64,000 nt of DNA from Bacillota bacterium (GTDB taxonomy: Bacteria > Bacillota > Sulfobacillia > JAJZYS01 > JAILZS01): positions 1-64,000 of the forward strand of contig JAILZS010000006.1 of assembly GCA_023512375.1 (NCBI GenBank), in the 5' to 3' direction. Positions 1,179-57,523 of the stretch are shown in pieces. The position numbers and the translations under genes were made by a program. Every line of letters begins with the position of its first letter. Position 1 is the stretch's first letter. The notes under the pieces were generated by a model. That model saw nothing but the letters and a program-made list of their open reading frames with translations. It made no database searches and had not been told where the DNA came from.

Positions 1179-3791
1179 TCAGACGCCGCCGTCCGCCCGC
1201 GGCGGCATGGCGCCCACCAGGCGCAGGAGGGCGACAGGCGTCTGCTCGTGCCCTTGGCCCAAGGGGTTGTCCAGGAAGAGGCGGCGCACGCGCTCCGGGT
1301 CGACGCCGTCGCTGTGGCCCAGGACGACCGCGTCGATGTCGTTGGCGTCCACGACGGCCACACCCGCGCCCAGGGCGCGGGCCAGAGAGGCCGCCACCCC
1401 GGCGGGATCGGCGGGCGCCATCTTCGCGTGGCCGTTGTAGGGCGGGATGGTGCCGCGGGTGGGGCCGTCGATGGCGGCCACGGCGGGGGGGAGGAGACGG
1501 TAGAAGACCCCGCGCCTGCCCAGGGCGCGGGCGGCGGCGGCGACGGCGGCGGCGGCGACGATGCGTCCCGCCCCCACCTCCCGAAGGGCGAGCTCCATCG
1601 TCTCGGGGATGCCGAGGCCGATGCCCGCCGGCGTGCGGCGCACGAAGCGGCTGAGGAACCGGGCCAGGGGCCGCGGCCGCACCTCGCCCACGGGGAAGGA
1701 GCGCCCTTGGCTGATGGCCACGATCTTCTCGCTCACGGCCACCACATCCCCTGGGCGGAGGTCGTCGCCCACCGCCTGCCCCACCACCTGGGCGAGATCG
1801 TCGCCTGCTTCCACCAGGGGGGTGCGGCGGGGGGCCCTGAGCCAAACCTCTCCGTCCAACGCCTGGAAGAGATGGCGGCCGAAGTTGGGCCGGTAGCGGC
1901 CGAGCGCCTCGGCCGCAGCTCCGCCCAGGCGCTCGGCCACCCAGGCGTCGCCGACGGCCGCCACGTCGGCGGGCGGGGAGGCGCCGCCGGCCAGGGGGCG
2001 GGAGAAGAACACGCGCAGCCACAGCTCGGCGTTGATCACCCGCCACAGGAACAGGGAGGAGGCGATTTCCCCCCGGGCGGCGGCGCGGAAGGCCCGAGCC
2101 ACCGCCTCGCCGTCCCAGAACGGCCGGCTCTGGAAGAGAGGGGATTGGAAGAGGCTCTGGAAGACGGCGCGGCGGGCGAACAGCCAGCGCGTCTCCGGGG
2201 TGGTGAACCCGACCTTCCAGCGCCGGCGGCGGATGCGCTCCGGCAGGACGCCGCGCATGCCCTGCCGCAGCAGGTAGCGCGCCCAGCCGTCGCGGATGAT
2301 CGCCTCCTCGGGGAGGGCGAGGATGCGCTCCACGAGTTCCTGGTCCAGCCACGGCACGCGCGATTCGAGGGAGTGGGCCATGGAGTTGCGGTCCTCGTAC
2401 CGGAGCAGGGCCGGCAGGCTGTACGTGGTGACGTCCTCGAGCAGCCGGCGCTTGAGGTCGTCCGCCGGCCGCGTATCGCGCGCCGGCGCCATGCGCGCGG
2501 TCCACGCCGGGTCGAGCAGGCGCCGGCCCGGGAAGGGACGCCGCCGATCCCGGCGCTCGCGCGCCAACAGGGGCGCGAGGACGTCGCGTGCCGCCCACGC
2601 CTCGCGCACGAGCCTGCCCAGGCGGCGCTGGCGCCACAGCTGCCGGAGGTAGACGAGATGGTAGGGGACGTATCCCGCCATGAGCTCGTCCCCGCCCTGA
2701 CCGTCGAGGACCACCGTGACGTGGCGGCGCGCCTCGCGCATGACGCACCACTGGGCGTAAGGACCGGTGCTGACGAACGGCTCGTCCTGATGCCATACGA
2801 GCTGGGCAAGCTCGGCGACGAACGTGGTCGAGTCGGGGCGGACGTAGTCGGTGTCGGCGCCTGCCGCCGCCACGGCCACCTCGATGTAGGCGCGCTCGTC
2901 GATGGGGTCGCCGTCGTAGACGGCGGAGAAGGTCTTCACGCGCCCGCGCAGGCTGGCAGCGTCGGGCAGCTCCTGCCGCAGGAGGTCGGCCATGAGGCAG
3001 ACGATGGTGGAGGAGTCGAGGCCGCCGCTCAGGCAGGCGCCCACCGGTACGTCGGCCACCAGGCGGCGGGCGACGGAGCGGCGGAAGGCGTCCGCGAAAG
3101 GGGCGGCCTCGGCGTCGCCGTCGCGGCGCAGGGAGGGGCGCCAGTACGCCTCCAGGCGGACGCCGTCGGCGTCCACCACCGCGTAGTGGGCCGCCGGCAG
3201 GCGGCGGACGCCGGCGAAGAAGGTCTCGGGCCGATGGTCGTGCAGGCCGTACGCCAGGTACTCGTACAGCACCTGCTCGTCCACCGCCGGCTTGAGCTGG
3301 GGCGCGCGCAACAGGGCCTTGATCTCCGACGCGAACAGGAGCCGGTCCCCGGCGCGGGCGTAGTAGAGGGGCTTGATGCCGAAGTGGTCCCGGCACAGCA
3401 CCAGGCGCCGGCGCGGGCGGTCGTAGATGGCCAGCGCCCACATGCCGTTGAAGCGGGCGAAGGCGTCGGTGCCCCAGGCCTCGTAGGCCCGCAGCACGAC
3501 CTCCGAGTCGGCGTCGGTGCGGAAGCGGCTCCCCAGCGCCATGAGCTCCGCCCGCAGCTCGCGGTAGTTGTACACCTCGCCGTTGTACACGAGGGTGACG
3601 GCGCCGTCGTCGCCGTGCATGGGCTGGTGGCCGCCCGCGGGGTCGATGATGCTCAGGCGGCGGAAGCCGAGCGACACCCGCTCGTCCACGGCGTACCCCT
3701 CGTCGTCGGGGCCGCGGTGGCGCAGGGTGTCGGTCATGGCCCGCAGGAGGTCGTCCGCGCGGGCGCCCCAGAAGCCCGCGATGCCGCACAC
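1179..3791 (-). CDS. asnB: Asparagine synthetase (glutamine-hydrolysing) fused to a C-terminal CofE-like (coenzyme F420-0:L-glutamate ligase-like) domain
   Basis: MCGIAGFWG start with catalytic Cys2, YNGEVYNYRELR, CLSGGLDSS PP-loop; from about residue 630 a second domain (LRPGDVVAVSEKIVAISQGR, GIGLGIPETMELALREVG, AIDGPTRGTIPPYNGHAK, DNPLGQGHEQTPVALLR). Confidence 0.9.
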   Translation of the reverse strand: MCGIAGFWGARADDLLRAMTDTLRHRGPDDEGYAVDERVSLGFRRLSIIDPAGGHQPMHGDDGAVTLVYNGEVYNYRELRAELMALGSRFRTDADSEVVLRAYEAWGTDAFARFNGMWALAIYDRPRRRLVLCRDHFGIKPLYYARAGDRLLFASEIKALLRAPQLKPAVDEQVLYEYLAYGLHDHRPETFFAGVRRLPAAHYAVVDADGVRLEAYWRPSLRRDGDAEAAPFADAFRRSVARRLVADVPVGACLSGGLDSSTIVCLMADLLRQELPDAASLRGRVKTFSAVYDGDPIDERAYIEVAVAAAGADTDYVRPDSTTFVAELAQLVWHQDEPFVSTGPYAQWCVMREARRHVTVVLDGQGGDELMAGYVPYHLVYLRQLWRQRRLGRLVREAWAARDVLAPLLARERRDRRRPFPGRRLLDPAWTARMAPARDTRPADDLKRRLLEDVTTYSLPALLRYEDRNSMAHSLESRVPWLDQELVERILALPEEAIIRDGWARYLLRQGMRGVLPERIRRRRWKVGFTTPETRWLFARRAVFQSLFQSPLFQSRPFWDGEAVARAFRAAARGEIASSLFLWRVINAELWLRVFFSRPLAGGASPPADVAAVGDAWVAERLGGAAAEALGRYRPNFGRHLFQALDGEVWLRAPRRTPLVEAGDDLAQVVGQAVGDDLRPGDVVAVSEKIVAISQGRSFPVGEVRPRPLARFLSRFVRRTPAGIGLGIPETMELALREVGAGRIVAAAAVAAAARALGRRGVFYRLLPPAVAAIDGPTRGTIPPYNGHAKMAPADPAGVAASLARALGAGVAVVDANDIDAVVLGHSDGVDPERVRRLFLDNPLGQGHEQTPVALLRLVGAMPPRADGGV

Positions 3792-3872: not shown

Positions 3873-4136
3873 TCAGCCGGCCGCTTCGAGCCGGCGCGCC
3901 AGGCGCGCCTTCTTGCGGTTGGCGCGGTTGCGGTGGATGGCGCCCTTCTGGGCGGCCCGGTCGAGGGCGCGGTAGACGTTGCGCAGAGCGGCCGCCGCTC
4001 CCTCCCGGTCGCCCGCCTTGAGGAGGCGCTCGAAGCGCCGGATGGCGGTGCGCACGAACGTGCGCCGCCGCCGGTTCTCCATCGTCCGGCGCAACGTGAC
4101 GCGGATGCGCTTCTGCGCCGACTTCGTGTTGGCCAC
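3873..4136 (-). CDS. rpsT: 30S ribosomal protein S20
   Basis: VANTKSAQKRIRVTLRRTMENRRRRTFVRTAIRRFE..., basic S20 sequence; GTG start inside the longer ORF. Confidence 0.95.
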   Translation of the reverse strand: MANTKSAQKRIRVTLRRTMENRRRRTFVRTAIRRFERLLKAGDREGAAAALRNVYRALDRAAQKGAIHRNRANRKKARLARRLEAAG

Positions 4137-6579: not shown

Positions 6580-8154
6580 TCAGCCCGCACGGCCGGCGGC
6601 ATGGGCCCACGGCCCCAGGCGGCGGCGCAGGTAGACGAGGGTCTGGGCCATCTCGGGGATGCGCAGGAGGACGGCGAACAGGGAGAAGCCCGCCACGCCG
6701 GCGGCGAGGGCGGCGAGGAGGCTTACCACCGTCGGCGCGCCGGCCAGGGCGAGGCGCACGACCGCCACGACCGCCGCCATGCCGGCGCTGGCGACCAGGG
6801 TGCGCAGGAAGGACGAGGCGGTGGCCATGAGGCCCAGCCGCCGCCGTAGGCGCCGGCGCAGGAGGATGGTGAGGAGCCCTACGTTGAGAAAGCCGCTTGC
6901 GCTGTACGCGAGGGCGAGTCCGAGCAAGTGGAGGTAACGCGCCCCCAGGTAGTTGAGCCCCACCGACACGAGGAGGTTGACGGCGCTGGCCGCGAGGGGC
7001 GTCCGGGTGTCCTCCACGGCGTAGAAGCCGCGGCTGACGATCTCGTACGTGGCGTAGGCCACCACGCCCACGCTGTAACCGACGACGGCGCGGGCGGTGA
7101 CGGCGGTGTCGGCGGCGGTGAAGGCGCCGTGCTGGAAGAGGACGGCCACCACCGGTCCGGCCAAGAGCATGAGGCCCACCGAGGCCGGCAGGCTGAGGAA
7201 GACCACGCTCCCCAGGGCGCCGGAGAAGAGGCGGCGGTAGGAGGCCCAGTCGCGCACCGCCGCCACCCGGCTCAAGGCGGGGAGGGCGGCGATGCCGATG
7301 GAGATGGCGAGCATGATGGGCACGAGCACGACGCGGCTGGCCAGGGTGAGGGCGTTGATCGAGCCGGCAGGCAGGAACGAGGCCAGGAAGGTCTGGTTGA
7401 CGAGGAAGTTCAGCTGCACGAAGGAAAGGCCGATCATGACCGGCAGGGAGAGGCGGGCCAGGCGCGCCACCCCCTCGTGCCGCCAGTCGAGGGAGGGGGC
7501 GTAGCGCGGGCGCAGTCGGGCCACGCCCCAGAGCTGGATGAGGAAGTTGAGCAGCGACGCCACGGCGGTGGCCAGGGCGAAGGCCTCGACCCGCATGTCG
7601 ATGGGCCCCGGCCCGTGGGGAAGGACCCGCATCCAGAGGAGGCCGAGTACGATGATGGCCGCGTTGTACACGAGCGGTCCCAAGGCCGTGCCCCAGAACG
7701 ACTGGTAGGCGTACTCCACCCCCATGAGCACGGCGTTGAGGGCGTGGAAGAGGATGGCCAGGAACATGATGCGGGTGAGGGCGGCCGCGTCCGCCAGGGC
7801 GGCGGGGCCGAAGCCGGGGGCCACGACGCGGACCAGGAGGGGGGCGAAGGCGACGGCTGCCGCGAGGACGACGAAGAGCAGGAGGAGGACGAGGTTGTAG
7901 GCCACGGAGGTCACGTACCACACCTGGTCCTCGCGCCTCTCGGCCAGGTAGCGGCTGAGGATGGGGATGAAGGCGGTGGACATGCCGCCCCCGACGAGGA
8001 TCAGGTAGATCGTGTCGGGCGCGAAGTACGAGGCGTTGAGGATGTCGACGGAGCGGTTCTGCCCGAACGCGGCCGAGATCACGGAGTTGCGCACGAAGCC
8101 CAGGACGCGCGACAGGGCCATGGCCACCCCGATGAGCGTGGCCGCGCGCGCCAC
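6580..8154 (-). CDS. murJ: Lipid II flippase MurJ / MviN family
   Basis: VARAATLIGVAMALSRVLGFVRNSVISAAFGQNRSVDILNASYFAPDTIYLILVGGGMSTAFIPILSRY; multi-TM MviN signature. GTG start. Confidence 0.93.
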   Translation of the reverse strand: MARAATLIGVAMALSRVLGFVRNSVISAAFGQNRSVDILNASYFAPDTIYLILVGGGMSTAFIPILSRYLAERREDQVWYVTSVAYNLVLLLLFVVLAAAVAFAPLLVRVVAPGFGPAALADAAALTRIMFLAILFHALNAVLMGVEYAYQSFWGTALGPLVYNAAIIVLGLLWMRVLPHGPGPIDMRVEAFALATAVASLLNFLIQLWGVARLRPRYAPSLDWRHEGVARLARLSLPVMIGLSFVQLNFLVNQTFLASFLPAGSINALTLASRVVLVPIMLAISIGIAALPALSRVAAVRDWASYRRLFSGALGSVVFLSLPASVGLMLLAGPVVAVLFQHGAFTAADTAVTARAVVGYSVGVVAYATYEIVSRGFYAVEDTRTPLAASAVNLLVSVGLNYLGARYLHLLGLALAYSASGFLNVGLLTILLRRRLRRRLGLMATASSFLRTLVASAGMAAVVAVVRLALAGAPTVVSLLAALAAGVAGFSLFAVLLRIPEMAQTLVYLRRRLGPWAHAAGRAG

Positions 8155-8335
8155 CGTGCCCGTCCGGCCGAACGCCTCCGGCCTCTCCTCGCGTTCCAGT
8201 CGCGTTCGCTCCCCGCACCCCGCGTACCCGCCGCGCCGGCGTCGTCCCCAGGGTACCACAGGGCACGGCCGGGCATGGACGGCGGCATGGGGGCGACGGC
8301 GGGGACATACCGTGCCGGCGGGGGGAGGCAGTCGG

Positions 8336-9397
8336 TTGCGAGCGTGGTGGGTGCGGGTGGGCCGGCGCGGACCCCGGGCGGCCTGGGGCGCGCCGCGCCG
8401 TGCGCGCCCTGCCCACGCCCTCCTCCCCGCCGGCGTCGCCCTGGCCGCCGTCGCGGCGGTCCTCTCCCTTCCGTCCGCCCCGCGTGTGGCGCCGGCTTCC
8501 GCCCTCGGCCCGGCGCCCGCTCCGGACGGGCGCGCCCTCGCCCTCCTGGCGGCGGCGCTTCCCGCGTGGGCGGGCGCGGCAGGGGAGGGGTCACCATGGC
8601 AGCGCCTGGCCGAATGGTTGGCGGGCGGCGGCGCCGTCGCGCCGCCGGCCCCGCCGCCGGCGCCGCCGTACGCGCCCTCCGCCGCCCATCCGCCCAACGC
8701 CCGGCCGCCCGATCCGGCCCCTCCGCCGCCCGACGTGTACGGCACGCGGCCGCTGGTGGCCATCTACCACACCGACTCGACGGAGGCCTACCTGCCGGCC
8801 ATGCGGGAGGCGGGCCTGCCGGCGACGGCGCCCTTCTCGCGCGACCAGGCGGTGGGGGTGGTGCAGGTGGGTGCCGTCCTCGCCCAGGCGCTGTGGCGGC
8901 TGGGGGTGGCGGCGGTGCACAGCCGGGCGGTGAACGATCCGGACGGGGTCATCGGGGCGTACGAGAACAGCCAGCGCACGGCCCAGGCGCTCCTCGCCGC
9001 CTACCCCAGCGTGCGCATCCTGCTGGACCTGCACCGCGGCGGCGCGGGCGAGGCCCAGGCCCCCGCCCCGCCCGCCGGGGCGGGGAGCGACGGCGCAGCG
9101 GGCGTGGTGCTCGTGGTCGGCACGGATGACCGCCTGCCCCAGCCGCACTGGCGGCAGAACCTGGCCTTCGCCCGCGTGCTGGCGGCCGCCGCCGGCCGCC
9201 TCTACCCGGGCTGGCCGGTTGCCGTGGTGGTGAGTCCCAACCAGTACAACCAGGAGCTCAGCCCCGGTGCCCTCCTCGTCGAGGTGGGCGGGCCGAACAC
9301 CACCCTGGCGAGCGCCGACGCCGCTGCCCGCCGCCTCGCCCGCGTCCTGGCCGCCGTGGTCGAGGGGGGGCTCTATCCCGGCGCAGGCGGCGGCTGA
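8336..9397 (+). CDS. spoIIP: Stage II sporulation protein P (SpoIIP)
   Basis: RPLVAIYHTDSTEAYLP, HSRAVNDPDGVIGAYENSQRTAQALL, VSPNQYNQELSPGALLVEVGGPNTTLASADAAARRLA; directly upstream of lepA as in Bacillus. TTG start preceded by GGGGGAGG. Confidence 0.88.
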   Translation: MRAWWVRVGRRGPRAAWGAPRRARPAHALLPAGVALAAVAAVLSLPSAPRVAPASALGPAPAPDGRALALLAAALPAWAGAAGEGSPWQRLAEWLAGGGAVAPPAPPPAPPYAPSAAHPPNARPPDPAPPPPDVYGTRPLVAIYHTDSTEAYLPAMREAGLPATAPFSRDQAVGVVQVGAVLAQALWRLGVAAVHSRAVNDPDGVIGAYENSQRTAQALLAAYPSVRILLDLHRGGAGEAQAPAPPAGAGSDGAAGVVLVVGTDDRLPQPHWRQNLAFARVLAAAAGRLYPGWPVAVVVSPNQYNQELSPGALLVEVGGPNTTLASADAAARRLARVLAAVVEGGLYPGAGGG

Positions 9398-54421: not shown

Positions 54422-55497
54422 ACCAGGCCCTCCTGCAGGCGAGCTGGGACGCGGTGCGCGCCAGCGGCTTCACCGCCTACGTCCTCCTGTCGGGCGCCGT
54501 CGTGCTCGGGCTGCTCCTGAGCATCCGCTGGCAGTCGCGGACCTGGCCGCGTCTCATCACGAACGACATGCACAACTTCCTCACGCTGCTCGCCCTCGCC
54601 TTCGGTGTCGTGCATGGCGTGGCGGCCTACCTCGACCCGTTCATGCGCTTCGCCCCGGCCGAGGTCCTGGTCCCCATGGCCAGCCACTACCGGCCGCTGT
54701 GGATGGCCTTCGGCATCGTCTCCCTCTACCTGGCCGTGGCGGTGGTGTTGAGCACGTGGCTTCGCCCCCGCATCGGCTACCGCCTGTGGCGGGCCCTGCA
54801 CGTCCTGACGTTCCTCGTGTTCGCCTTCGCCACCCTGCACGGGCTGGGCACGGGCAGCGACACCCGCACGTGGTGGGGGGCGGGCATCTACGCCCTGGCG
54901 GCGGCGATCGTCCTCGCTCTCACCGTGCGTCGCCTCATGGCGCCCGCGGGCCGGGTCGCGCGACCGCGTCCGGCGGTGGCGGGGGCGGTGGTGGCGGCGG
55001 CGGCGACCCTGACGCTGTGGGCGGCACAGGGACCGTTGCGCCCGGGCTGGAACCGTGTGGCCAACGACGGGCGCGGCAGCGGCGCGCGCATCACCCTGGC
55101 GAGCCAGGTGTCCGCCGCCCTCCCGCCCCTTCCCAGCCGCTTCGCGGCCGCCTTCACGGGCACGATGCAGGTCGTCGGGTCGCGGGGGGACCTCGTGTTC
55201 CTACGGGTCGCCGGCACCTTTCGCGGGGGGGCGCGGGGCGATCTGGAGGTGCTCGTGGCGGGTGCTCCCGTGGGCGGAGGCGGCCTGGCGGTGGTGCGCA
55301 GCCAGGTCACCCTGTACCGGGCCGACGGCACGGCCGCCTACCGAGGGGCGATCGCCCGCGTCGCGGGGCCGCTCCTGGTGGCCGATCTCAAGCCTCTCGC
55401 GGGCGGCGGCCCGGACCTCAGCCTGTCGATGCGTTGGTCCGGGGTGGGGCGGACCGTGCAGGGGAGCGTCCAGGCGTCGCCCATGGGTTCGGGCTGA
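54418..55497 (+). CDS. Ferric-reductase-like (heme-type) transmembrane protein with a C-terminal extracytoplasmic extension
   Basis: TAYVLLSGAVVLGLLLS, NDMHNFLTLLALAFGVVHGVAAYLD, WRALHVLTFLVFAFATLHGLGTGSD; His-containing TM helices; GTGA overlap with apbE. Confidence 0.8.
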   Translation: MNQALLQASWDAVRASGFTAYVLLSGAVVLGLLLSIRWQSRTWPRLITNDMHNFLTLLALAFGVVHGVAAYLDPFMRFAPAEVLVPMASHYRPLWMAFGIVSLYLAVAVVLSTWLRPRIGYRLWRALHVLTFLVFAFATLHGLGTGSDTRTWWGAGIYALAAAIVLALTVRRLMAPAGRVARPRPAVAGAVVAAAATLTLWAAQGPLRPGWNRVANDGRGSGARITLASQVSAALPPLPSRFAAAFTGTMQVVGSRGDLVFLRVAGTFRGGARGDLEVLVAGAPVGGGGLAVVRSQVTLYRADGTAAYRGAIARVAGPLLVADLKPLAGGGPDLSLSMRWSGVGRTVQGSVQASPMGSG

Positions 55498-55542
55498 CGC
55501 GGGCGTCGCCTCGGGTCGCAGGACGTCGGGTACTGGCGCCGT

Positions 55543-55569
55543 TCTCACGGGAATCTCATGCTCTTCTTG
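55543..55569 (+). promoter_or_regulatory. 11-bp-phased direct repeats upstream of the second asparagine synthetase
   Basis: TCTCA (55543), TCTCA (55554), TCTTG (55565); same motif and phase as 53058. Confidence 0.5.
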
Positions 55570-55648
55570 CGTCTCTCCGATAGCGCCGTGTTGTGCTGGT
55601 ACGGACGGCCGCCGCGGGCGGCGGAGCGACGCAGGGGGGAGTCGCCGC

Positions 55649-57523
55649 GTGTGCGGGATCTGCGGCTTTTCGTCCTTGCCCGGGGCGGACGCGGCGATGC
55701 TGGCGCGCATGACCTCGGCCATGGCGCACCGGGGGCCCGACGACGAGGGCGCGTGGCTGGGTGAGGACGGGGTGGGGCTGGGGGTGCGCCGCTTGGCGGT
55801 CATCGACCCGGGCGGCAGCCCCCAGCCCCTGGCCAACGAGGACGGCTCGGTGCAGGTGGTGGTCAACGGCGAGATCTACAACTACCGCGAGCTGAGGCGG
55901 GAGCTGGAGGGGAGGGGCCACCGCCTGGCCACGGGCGGGGACGGCGAGGTCATCGCCCATCTGTACGAGGACCTGGGCCCGGACGTTGTGGCCCGCCTGC
56001 GCGGCATGTTCGCCTTCGCCCTGTACGACCGCCGTCGCGCCACGCTCCTGTTGGCGCGCGATCCCTTCGGCATCAAGCCGCTGTTCTGGGCCGAGGGCCG
56101 GTCGGGCGGGGTGCTCTTCGCCTCCGACGTGGGGTCGATCCTAGCCTCGGGGGCGGTGTCGCCGAGGGTGCGCGGGGCCGCCCTGTGGGACTACCTCACG
56201 TTCCAGTACGTCCCGGGTCCCGACACCCTGTTGGCGCGCGTCCACCGCCTGCCGCCCGGGCACCGAGCGACGGTGCGGGAGGGAGAGGTGCGGATCGAGG
56301 CATACGAGCACCTGCGCTTCGCCCCCGACGACACCCTCCCTTTCGCCGAGGCGAAAGTTCAGGTACGGCGGGCGCTGGAGGAGGCCGTGACCTCGCACCT
56401 GGCGAGCGACGTGCCGGTGGGGGCCTTCCTGTCGAGCGGCGTGGACTCCAGCGCTTTGGTCTCCCTGGCGCGGCGGCGGGGGGAGCTGGACACCTTCTCC
56501 ATCGCCTTCGAGGGCGCCCGCCCCCATGCCGACGAGGCGCCAGCGGCGCGCGCCCTTGCCGCCGCCTTGGGGACACGCCACCACGAGGTGCGGGTGGACG
56601 CGCGCGCATACGCCGACGCGTGGCCCGCCATCGTCCGCGCCATGGAGGACCCGGTGGCCGACCCCAGCGCCCCTGGTATCTACTTCCTCAGCCGGGAGGC
56701 GCGGCGGGCGGGCGTCAAGGTGGTTCTCTCGGGGGAAGGGGCGGACGAGCTGTTCGGCGGCTACCCGGTCTACCGCCAGCCCCACGACCTGCGGTGGGTG
56801 TCGCGGCTGCCCCCCGCCTGGCGGCGCTCCCTCGTCGCTGCGGCCCGGTGCCTGCCTGCCGGACGGCGCGGGCGCAACTACGTGGAGCGCGCCGCCACGC
56901 CGCTCGAGCGCCGCTACGTGGGAGGGGCGCGCATCCTGGAGGAGGGGGAGAAGGCCGCCCTCGCCGGCCCCCTGCTCTGGGCCGACGAGGGGCGGCAGGC
57001 GTCGTGCGAGCGCGCCGCCCCGTGGTATGCGGCGGTGCATGCCGACCGCCTGGACGAGCCCACGCGCATGCAGGCGGTCGACCTGGCAGGGTGGCTACCG
57101 GGAGACATCCTCGCCAAGGCGGACAAGATGAGCATGGCCCACGGCGTGGAGGTGCGCGTGCCCTACCTCGACCGGGGGATGTGGGAGGTGGCGCGCCAGC
57201 TGCCGACGCGCCACAAGCTGGGGGGCGGGACGACCAAGCGCGTCCTGCGGGCGGCCGTCGCCGACCTTCTGCCGGAAGAGGTGCGCCGCCGTCCCAAGCT
57301 CGGGTTCCCCGTGCCCCTGCGCGACTGGCTGCGGGGGCCGCTCGACGCCTACGTACGCGAGGTGGTGGCCGACCACTGGCCCGAGGGCTGGTTGGACCGC
57401 GCCGCCTTCGAGCGCATGATGGAAGAGAACCGCCTGGGCCGGGCGGACCGCGCCCGGGCCATCTACACGGTGGTGAACTTCGTCCTCTGGCACCGCATCT
57501 TCGTGACCGGCAAGGAGGGGTAG
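55649..57523 (+). CDS. asnB: Asparagine synthetase (glutamine-hydrolysing), second copy
   Basis: VCGICGF (Cys2), [69 protein letters not shown] start. Confidence 0.94.

Follow-up and report, generated by a model that had tools for sequence, protein, structure and literature searches.

The ligase CofE acts through an acyl phosphate, which is formed in an NTP-driven step involving metal ions and is then attacked by an amino acid, a mechanism that has been likened to that of MurD; in the Archaeoglobus enzyme (Af-CofE), the segment G153-C155 (GRC) contacts F420 (PMC10861534). Homologues of CofE are also found beyond F420 synthesis: CT611 (FolC2) of Chlamydia replaces FolC (PMC1971073), and QimC of S. 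pyogenes stands outside F420 synthesis or is without an assigned role (PMC13059722). Among the AsnB-type enzymes, LtsA amidates mDAP in peptidoglycan (PMC7920481), and the mDAP-amidating AsnB is without the D and R with which the E. coli enzyme binds Asp (PMC8554201).

The locus described here combines these two kinds of enzyme in one reading frame, located in a stretch of 64,000 nucleotides from a Bacillota bacterium, which is referred to below as the window. No paper on an AsnB–CofE fusion was found in a literature search, and the AsnB–CofE-like protein is apparently an undescribed domain architecture built from known enzyme superfamilies.

Layout of the fusion gene

The fusion gene (1179..3791, minus strand) begins with a GTG start at 3791 (GTG-TGC) and runs through 870 open codons to a stop ending at 1179, as the earlier note on this DNA had stated in describing one uninterrupted frame of 870 aa, and it is matched by both TIGR01536 and PF01996. 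The N-terminus of the protein reads MCGIAGFWG, with Cys2 directly after the start Met, so that removal of the Met would leave the catalytic Cys exposed. The AsnB half consists of a glutaminase part of the Ntn type (Cys2; residues ~1-205, 3177..3791, minus strand), recognized by GATase_7/GATase_6 and by its invariant residues, with the GATase_7 match spanning residues 44-161, and of a synthetase domain with a PP-loop for ATP (residues 233-593, 2013..3095, minus strand), which PF00733 matches over that entire range at 260 bits and which carries invariant motifs of its own. TIGR01536 covers residues 2-529 at 450.6 bits, vs. a cut-off of 267.1. The synthetase domain is followed by a variable linker (residues ~594-633, 1893..2012, minus strand), the length of which differs in the alignment of the fusions, with a conserved RPN.GRHLF motif coming next, and by the CofE-like domain (residues ~634-862, 1206..1892, minus strand), for which PF01996 (F420_ligase) gives 41.2 bits against a cut-off of 25, the match proper being residues 656-738.

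Twenty-one fusions, with 55-66% identity to the window protein, were aligned. The glutaminase residues C2, R44/R45, N70, G71, E72 and D95, the synthetase motifs SGGxDS, GQxGDE and RRWKVGFTTPE, and the CofE-like motifs QGR, IDGP/DGPT, DxxD (D815/D818) and NPxGQG are invariant among them, which suggests that purifying selection acts on both active sites. The earlier claim of a complete AsnB with a Cys2 glutaminase and a PP-loop is thereby confirmed. In one pairwise alignment, the fusion showed no counterpart of the D and R at the Asp site of the E. coli enzyme (YDVTTIR vs. PFVST), a lack that it would share with the mDAP-amidating AsnB, the choice of the D and R meant in PMC8554201 being our own reading; some AsnB proteins without these residues may still make Asn.

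A PDB search with a 29-row profile of the CofE-like domain retrieved Af-CofE at E=5.7e-7, and an AlphaFold model of the domain (pLDDT 86.4, pTM 0.82) returned in Foldseek five CofE chains (2phn/7uld) as significant and nothing else, with 2phn at E=5.9e-8 and a probability of 1.0. The C-terminal arginine (R234 of Af-CofE) is apparently kept as well. The C-terminal domain, which had been placed at residues ~630-870, is thus indeed CofE-like, and from the mechanism of CofE one would expect it, by default, to ligate amides; its fold and motifs suggest that the CofE-like half may perform such a reaction. The full-length model of the fusion (pTM 0.86) is, as judged from the pTM, consistent with the two domains being packed together.

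The nearest same-strand gene upstream of the fusion is rpsT, encoding ribosomal protein S20 (3873..4136, minus strand; PF01649, 89 bits), which is uninformative as context. Genes for a MurJ flippase and SpoIIP are found a few kb from the fusion (6580-8763 and 8294-9397), and a second AsnB-type gene of the window (55055-57523, plus strand) matches PF00733 at 338 bits and is without a CofE-like match.

Recurrence of the fusion and the AsnB partnership

Fused AsnB–CofE-like frames of ~870-1000 aa occur 19 times in 17 of 81 related genomes, under six family codes, and of the 80 best loci returned by a scan of GTDB genomes, 29 are fused, about a dozen of them on the same contigs as in the 81-genome search. 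The fused GTDB loci come from Actinomycetota (including Thermoleophilia and Acidimicrobiales), from Bacillota MAGs and from one Chloroflexi (Chloroflexota) MAG, so that the search for the same fusion elsewhere, which the earlier note had proposed, has a positive outcome. A chance open frame in DNA of 74% G+C and an assembly error were both considered and dismissed, since the junction recurs and residues on both of its sides are conserved. The two parts are also encoded by separate genes, touching or overlapping, in three further GTDB loci (L196, L200 and L225), and a class-wide search around L225 showed that this split form recurs and that in several pairs, going by the called starts, the two genes share 4-8 bp.

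In the AsnB tree, 28 fusion rows form one group (marked 100, with an asterisk), and the fusions and the AsnB proteins of the unfused asnB/cofE-like pairs come together as 34 rows (marked likewise), outside of which fall the remaining AsnB paralogues that these genomes encode, two of them in the source genome. In the CofE-like tree the fusions again stand together, followed by the split pairs and then by the stand-alone copies. The simplest reading of these two trees, which come from quick searches with no bootstrapping and in which the branch to the CofE outgroup is very long, is that the partnership of asnB and the cofE-like gene arose once; it may then have changed by either fusion or fission. 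The two halves, both intact, are conserved as one unit, in fused or touching genes, in at least three phyla, Bacillota, Actinomycetota and Chloroflexota. This partnership with a specific AsnB orthologue in three phyla offers a handle on the role of one CofE-like branch, and it makes the earlier proposal of two coupled amide-forming steps a reasonable model.

An ordinary asparagine synthetase, in which the CofE-like domain would be unrelated or regulatory (e.g., sensing nucleotides or amino acids) and the fusion would merely provide shared regulation, would agree with the score of the "asparagine synthase" equivalog TIGR01536, well over its cut-off, and with the absence of conserved operon partners, one family having the gene divergent from an adjacent amino-acid permease. 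It is nonetheless somewhat unlikely, as the source genome encodes four PF00733 proteins over the cut-off, i.e., three AsnB-type proteins besides the fusion, as the CofE-like motifs are invariant, and as the AsnB half is a specific orthologue tied to the CofE-like domain and distinct from the other AsnBs of the same genomes.

CofE-like genes that stand alone are distinct from the fusions and frequent: the domain was found in 160 of 399 genomes of the phylum (~40%), which bears out the kinship to stand-alone proteins that had been claimed for it, and members of this "F420 ligase" family, mostly without an established role, are also present in CPR, WOR-3 and Armatimonadota. Some of the stand-alone genes are in CPR and Fimbriimonadales genomes without an AsnB match (G477, G478, G480), which indicates that the function of the CofE-like protein does not need AsnB. 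An N-terminal PNxGK...RYPVKTH-like motif of stand-alone CofE-like proteins in CPR, WOR-3, Caldipriscus and Thermotogota (L182, L195, L199, L203, L207, L210, L213, L218, L223, L224 and L226) is similar to the last part of the linker in the fusions. Tandem or partial CofE-like copies, some with stops, are present on one contig in L146 (G009:C162:11856-15470) and also in G008:C30 and G005:C137, and are likely to reflect duplication and decay.

Improbable F420 and folate roles

Given the CofE fold of its C-terminal half, the fusion could be an F420-0:L-glutamate ligase, or another F420-modifying enzyme, joined to AsnB. The earlier note had raised F420 genes of the same genome as a point that could make it an ordinary F420 enzyme, and such genes are present in part: contig C36 of the assembly encodes a separate, true CofE (220 bits), a CofD-type protein beside it (139 bits) and a CofC match (50 bits), while cofH was not found in the source genome assembly. 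The same finding weighs against this role, since with a dedicated CofE in the genome the place of the F420 ligase would already be filled. C36 (L053, L001, L244) moreover has a G+C content of 66%, vs. 72-76% in the other pieces measured and ~74.5% for the assembly, and may, together with its cofC, cofD and cofE, be of foreign origin or have been binned wrongly.

The fusion itself scores only 29.3 bits with TIGR01916, the CofE equivalog, and does not reach the cut-off of 180.65. Compared with the genome's own CofE, all CofE-like rows show a gap, following TDT, at the equivalent of the F420-contacting G153-C155 of Af-CofE and at the long insert behind it, the position being derived from the Af-CofE match and PMC10861534. 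A CofD-type match (139-167-bit class) is present in only 1 of the 17 fusion genomes, the source genome (G000), and absent from the other 16; PF01933 (CofD) matches near 375 bits, which occur in most relatives and, judged from their score and spread, would belong to the YvcK group, were left out of this count. On account of the score, the missing segment and the co-occurrence, the F420 role was rejected as highly improbable, and the presence of cofC and cofD does not turn the fusion into an ordinary F420 enzyme.

An equally remote alternative is a folate-glutamylating enzyme of the FolC2 type, for which Chlamydia CT611 provides the precedent of a CofE homologue standing in for FolC (PMC1971073). 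FolC is, however, found over its cut-off in the source genome (190.8 bits, on C97), and nearly all of the relatives have it too, which makes such a substitution very unlikely and led to its rejection. The fusion would thus not be an F420 ligase, and it would also be more than the housekeeping asparagine synthetase of the cell.

Gene neighbourhoods, candidate acceptor and known enzymes

That the AsnB and CofE-like halves form a functional unit is well supported, and their chemistry is what we infer. We tentatively prefer, as a possibility and with clear reserve, an enzyme with two activities, amidotransferase and NTP-dependent amide ligase, both directed at a single acceptor, most likely a cell-wall precursor or muropeptide. 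The CofE-like half would activate a carboxylate with an NTP and a divalent metal and join it through an amide bond to an amino acid or other amine, and the AsnB half would adenylate a carboxylate, either that of the same acceptor or that of the product, and amidate it with ammonia from glutamine. The least certain step is the nature of the acceptor, for which a cytoplasmic cell-wall precursor or muropeptide would be the most likely guess, by analogy with the mDAP-amidating enzymes of the AsnB/LtsA type and with lactococci, in which a ligase and an AsnH-like protein form a pair that builds D-Asn cross-bridges. A more specific form of this proposal, in which the fusion is a two-step modifier of peptidoglycan or envelope precursors, with the CofE-like half coupling a stem-peptide carboxylate to an amine or amino acid and AsnB amidating the product, is rather unlikely. 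It would assign a cell-wall role to a branch of the widespread CofE-like family, which spans CPR bacteria to Clostridia.

The cell wall is the first guess because of three kinds of gene context taken together. In six related genomes, the pair is part of a division cluster, yggS-sepF-proC-yggT-asnB-cofE-like-divIVA-yggU-lspA, whose gene families were confirmed by Pfam in one of the six (L230) and whose placement represents one lineage and counts about once. Amidase_3 is either fused to the CofE-like domain or, in 6 of 38 loci, encoded immediately next to it, and SpoVB/MurJ-type flippases are near five stand-alone CofE-like copies. These contexts converge only weakly on cell-wall precursors; the Amidase_3, decarboxylase and most of the flippase links belong, in the CofE-like tree, to clades distant from the fused one, and the neighbours of the fusion are not conserved between lineages.

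A second, independent fusion was also observed, in which an N-terminally extended Amidase_3 (N-acetylmuramoyl-L-alanine amidase) is followed by a C-terminal CofE-like domain in frames of 545-627 aa from several families (L089:2861-4525, L090-L096, L099 and L100), with no obvious signal peptide. Other operon clues, namely an amino-acid permease, Usp, VanW-like protein and UPRTase, an ECF sigma factor with RseB, and a GltX-like synthetase with AFOR, were discarded as lineage synteny only, and among the neighbours of stand-alone CofE-like genes in CPR, WOR-3 and Clostridia no partner conserved across lineages was found. In L121 (5662-10323), a stand-alone CofE-like gene has gpr, for the germination protease, on one side and spoIIP on the other, with a lepA-like gene coming next. 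A sporulation gene as a general explanation was ruled out, as the family is also present in CPR and WOR-3, neither of which is known to sporulate.

CofE-like genes are found near two non-homologous types of arginine decarboxylase, OKR_DC_1 (L123, L126) and the pyruvoyl-dependent PvlArgDC (L132, L133, L135), a proximity which, seen in five loci that all belong to a distant clade, represents a possible polyamine link. These neighbours, or GlnA in some cases, and the 340 bits with which TIGR03104 (N-acetylglutaminylglutamine amidotransferase) matches the AsnB half, though under its cut-off of 570, would fit an enzyme whose two activities serve not the cell wall but the metabolism of small molecules or of polyamines and amino acids, with, e.g., a glutamyl- or aspartyl-amide as product, or an osmolyte such as N-acetylglutaminylglutamine amide. 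Such a role is quite unlikely, given that the clade with the decarboxylase neighbours is far from the fusion and that no osmolyte genes were seen beside the fusions. If the preferred reading of a cell-wall acceptor is true, the fusion would be a new kind of precursor-modifying enzyme, and a widespread misannotation could be tested with one purified protein.

Compared with the AsnB/TIGR01536 family, including the mDAP-amidating AsnB/LtsA, the fusion likewise has glutaminase and PP-loop domains that are complete and whose catalytic residues are invariant, differs in its additional C-terminal CofE-like domain and, in the one pairwise alignment with E. coli AsnB, is without the Asp-binding D and R. 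With CofE itself (TIGR01916; PDB 2phn, 7uld) it has in common the fold, the GR motif, the aspartates at the VDRSN/TDTFGR positions and the C-terminal arginine, whereas the GRC segment and the long insert are missing and the CofE-like half carries its own motif, NPLGQGxQQTP, and is joined to AsnB. FolC2 (CT611) and S. pyogenes QimC are likewise CofE homologues beyond F420 synthesis, and neither is fused to AsnB. The stand-alone CofE-like proteins of Bacillota, CPR, WOR-3 and Armatimonadota have the same domain and motifs, the closer ones being ~46-59% identical to the domain of the window; they have no AsnB half, and their neighbours vary, with Amidase_3 fused or adjacent in one clade.
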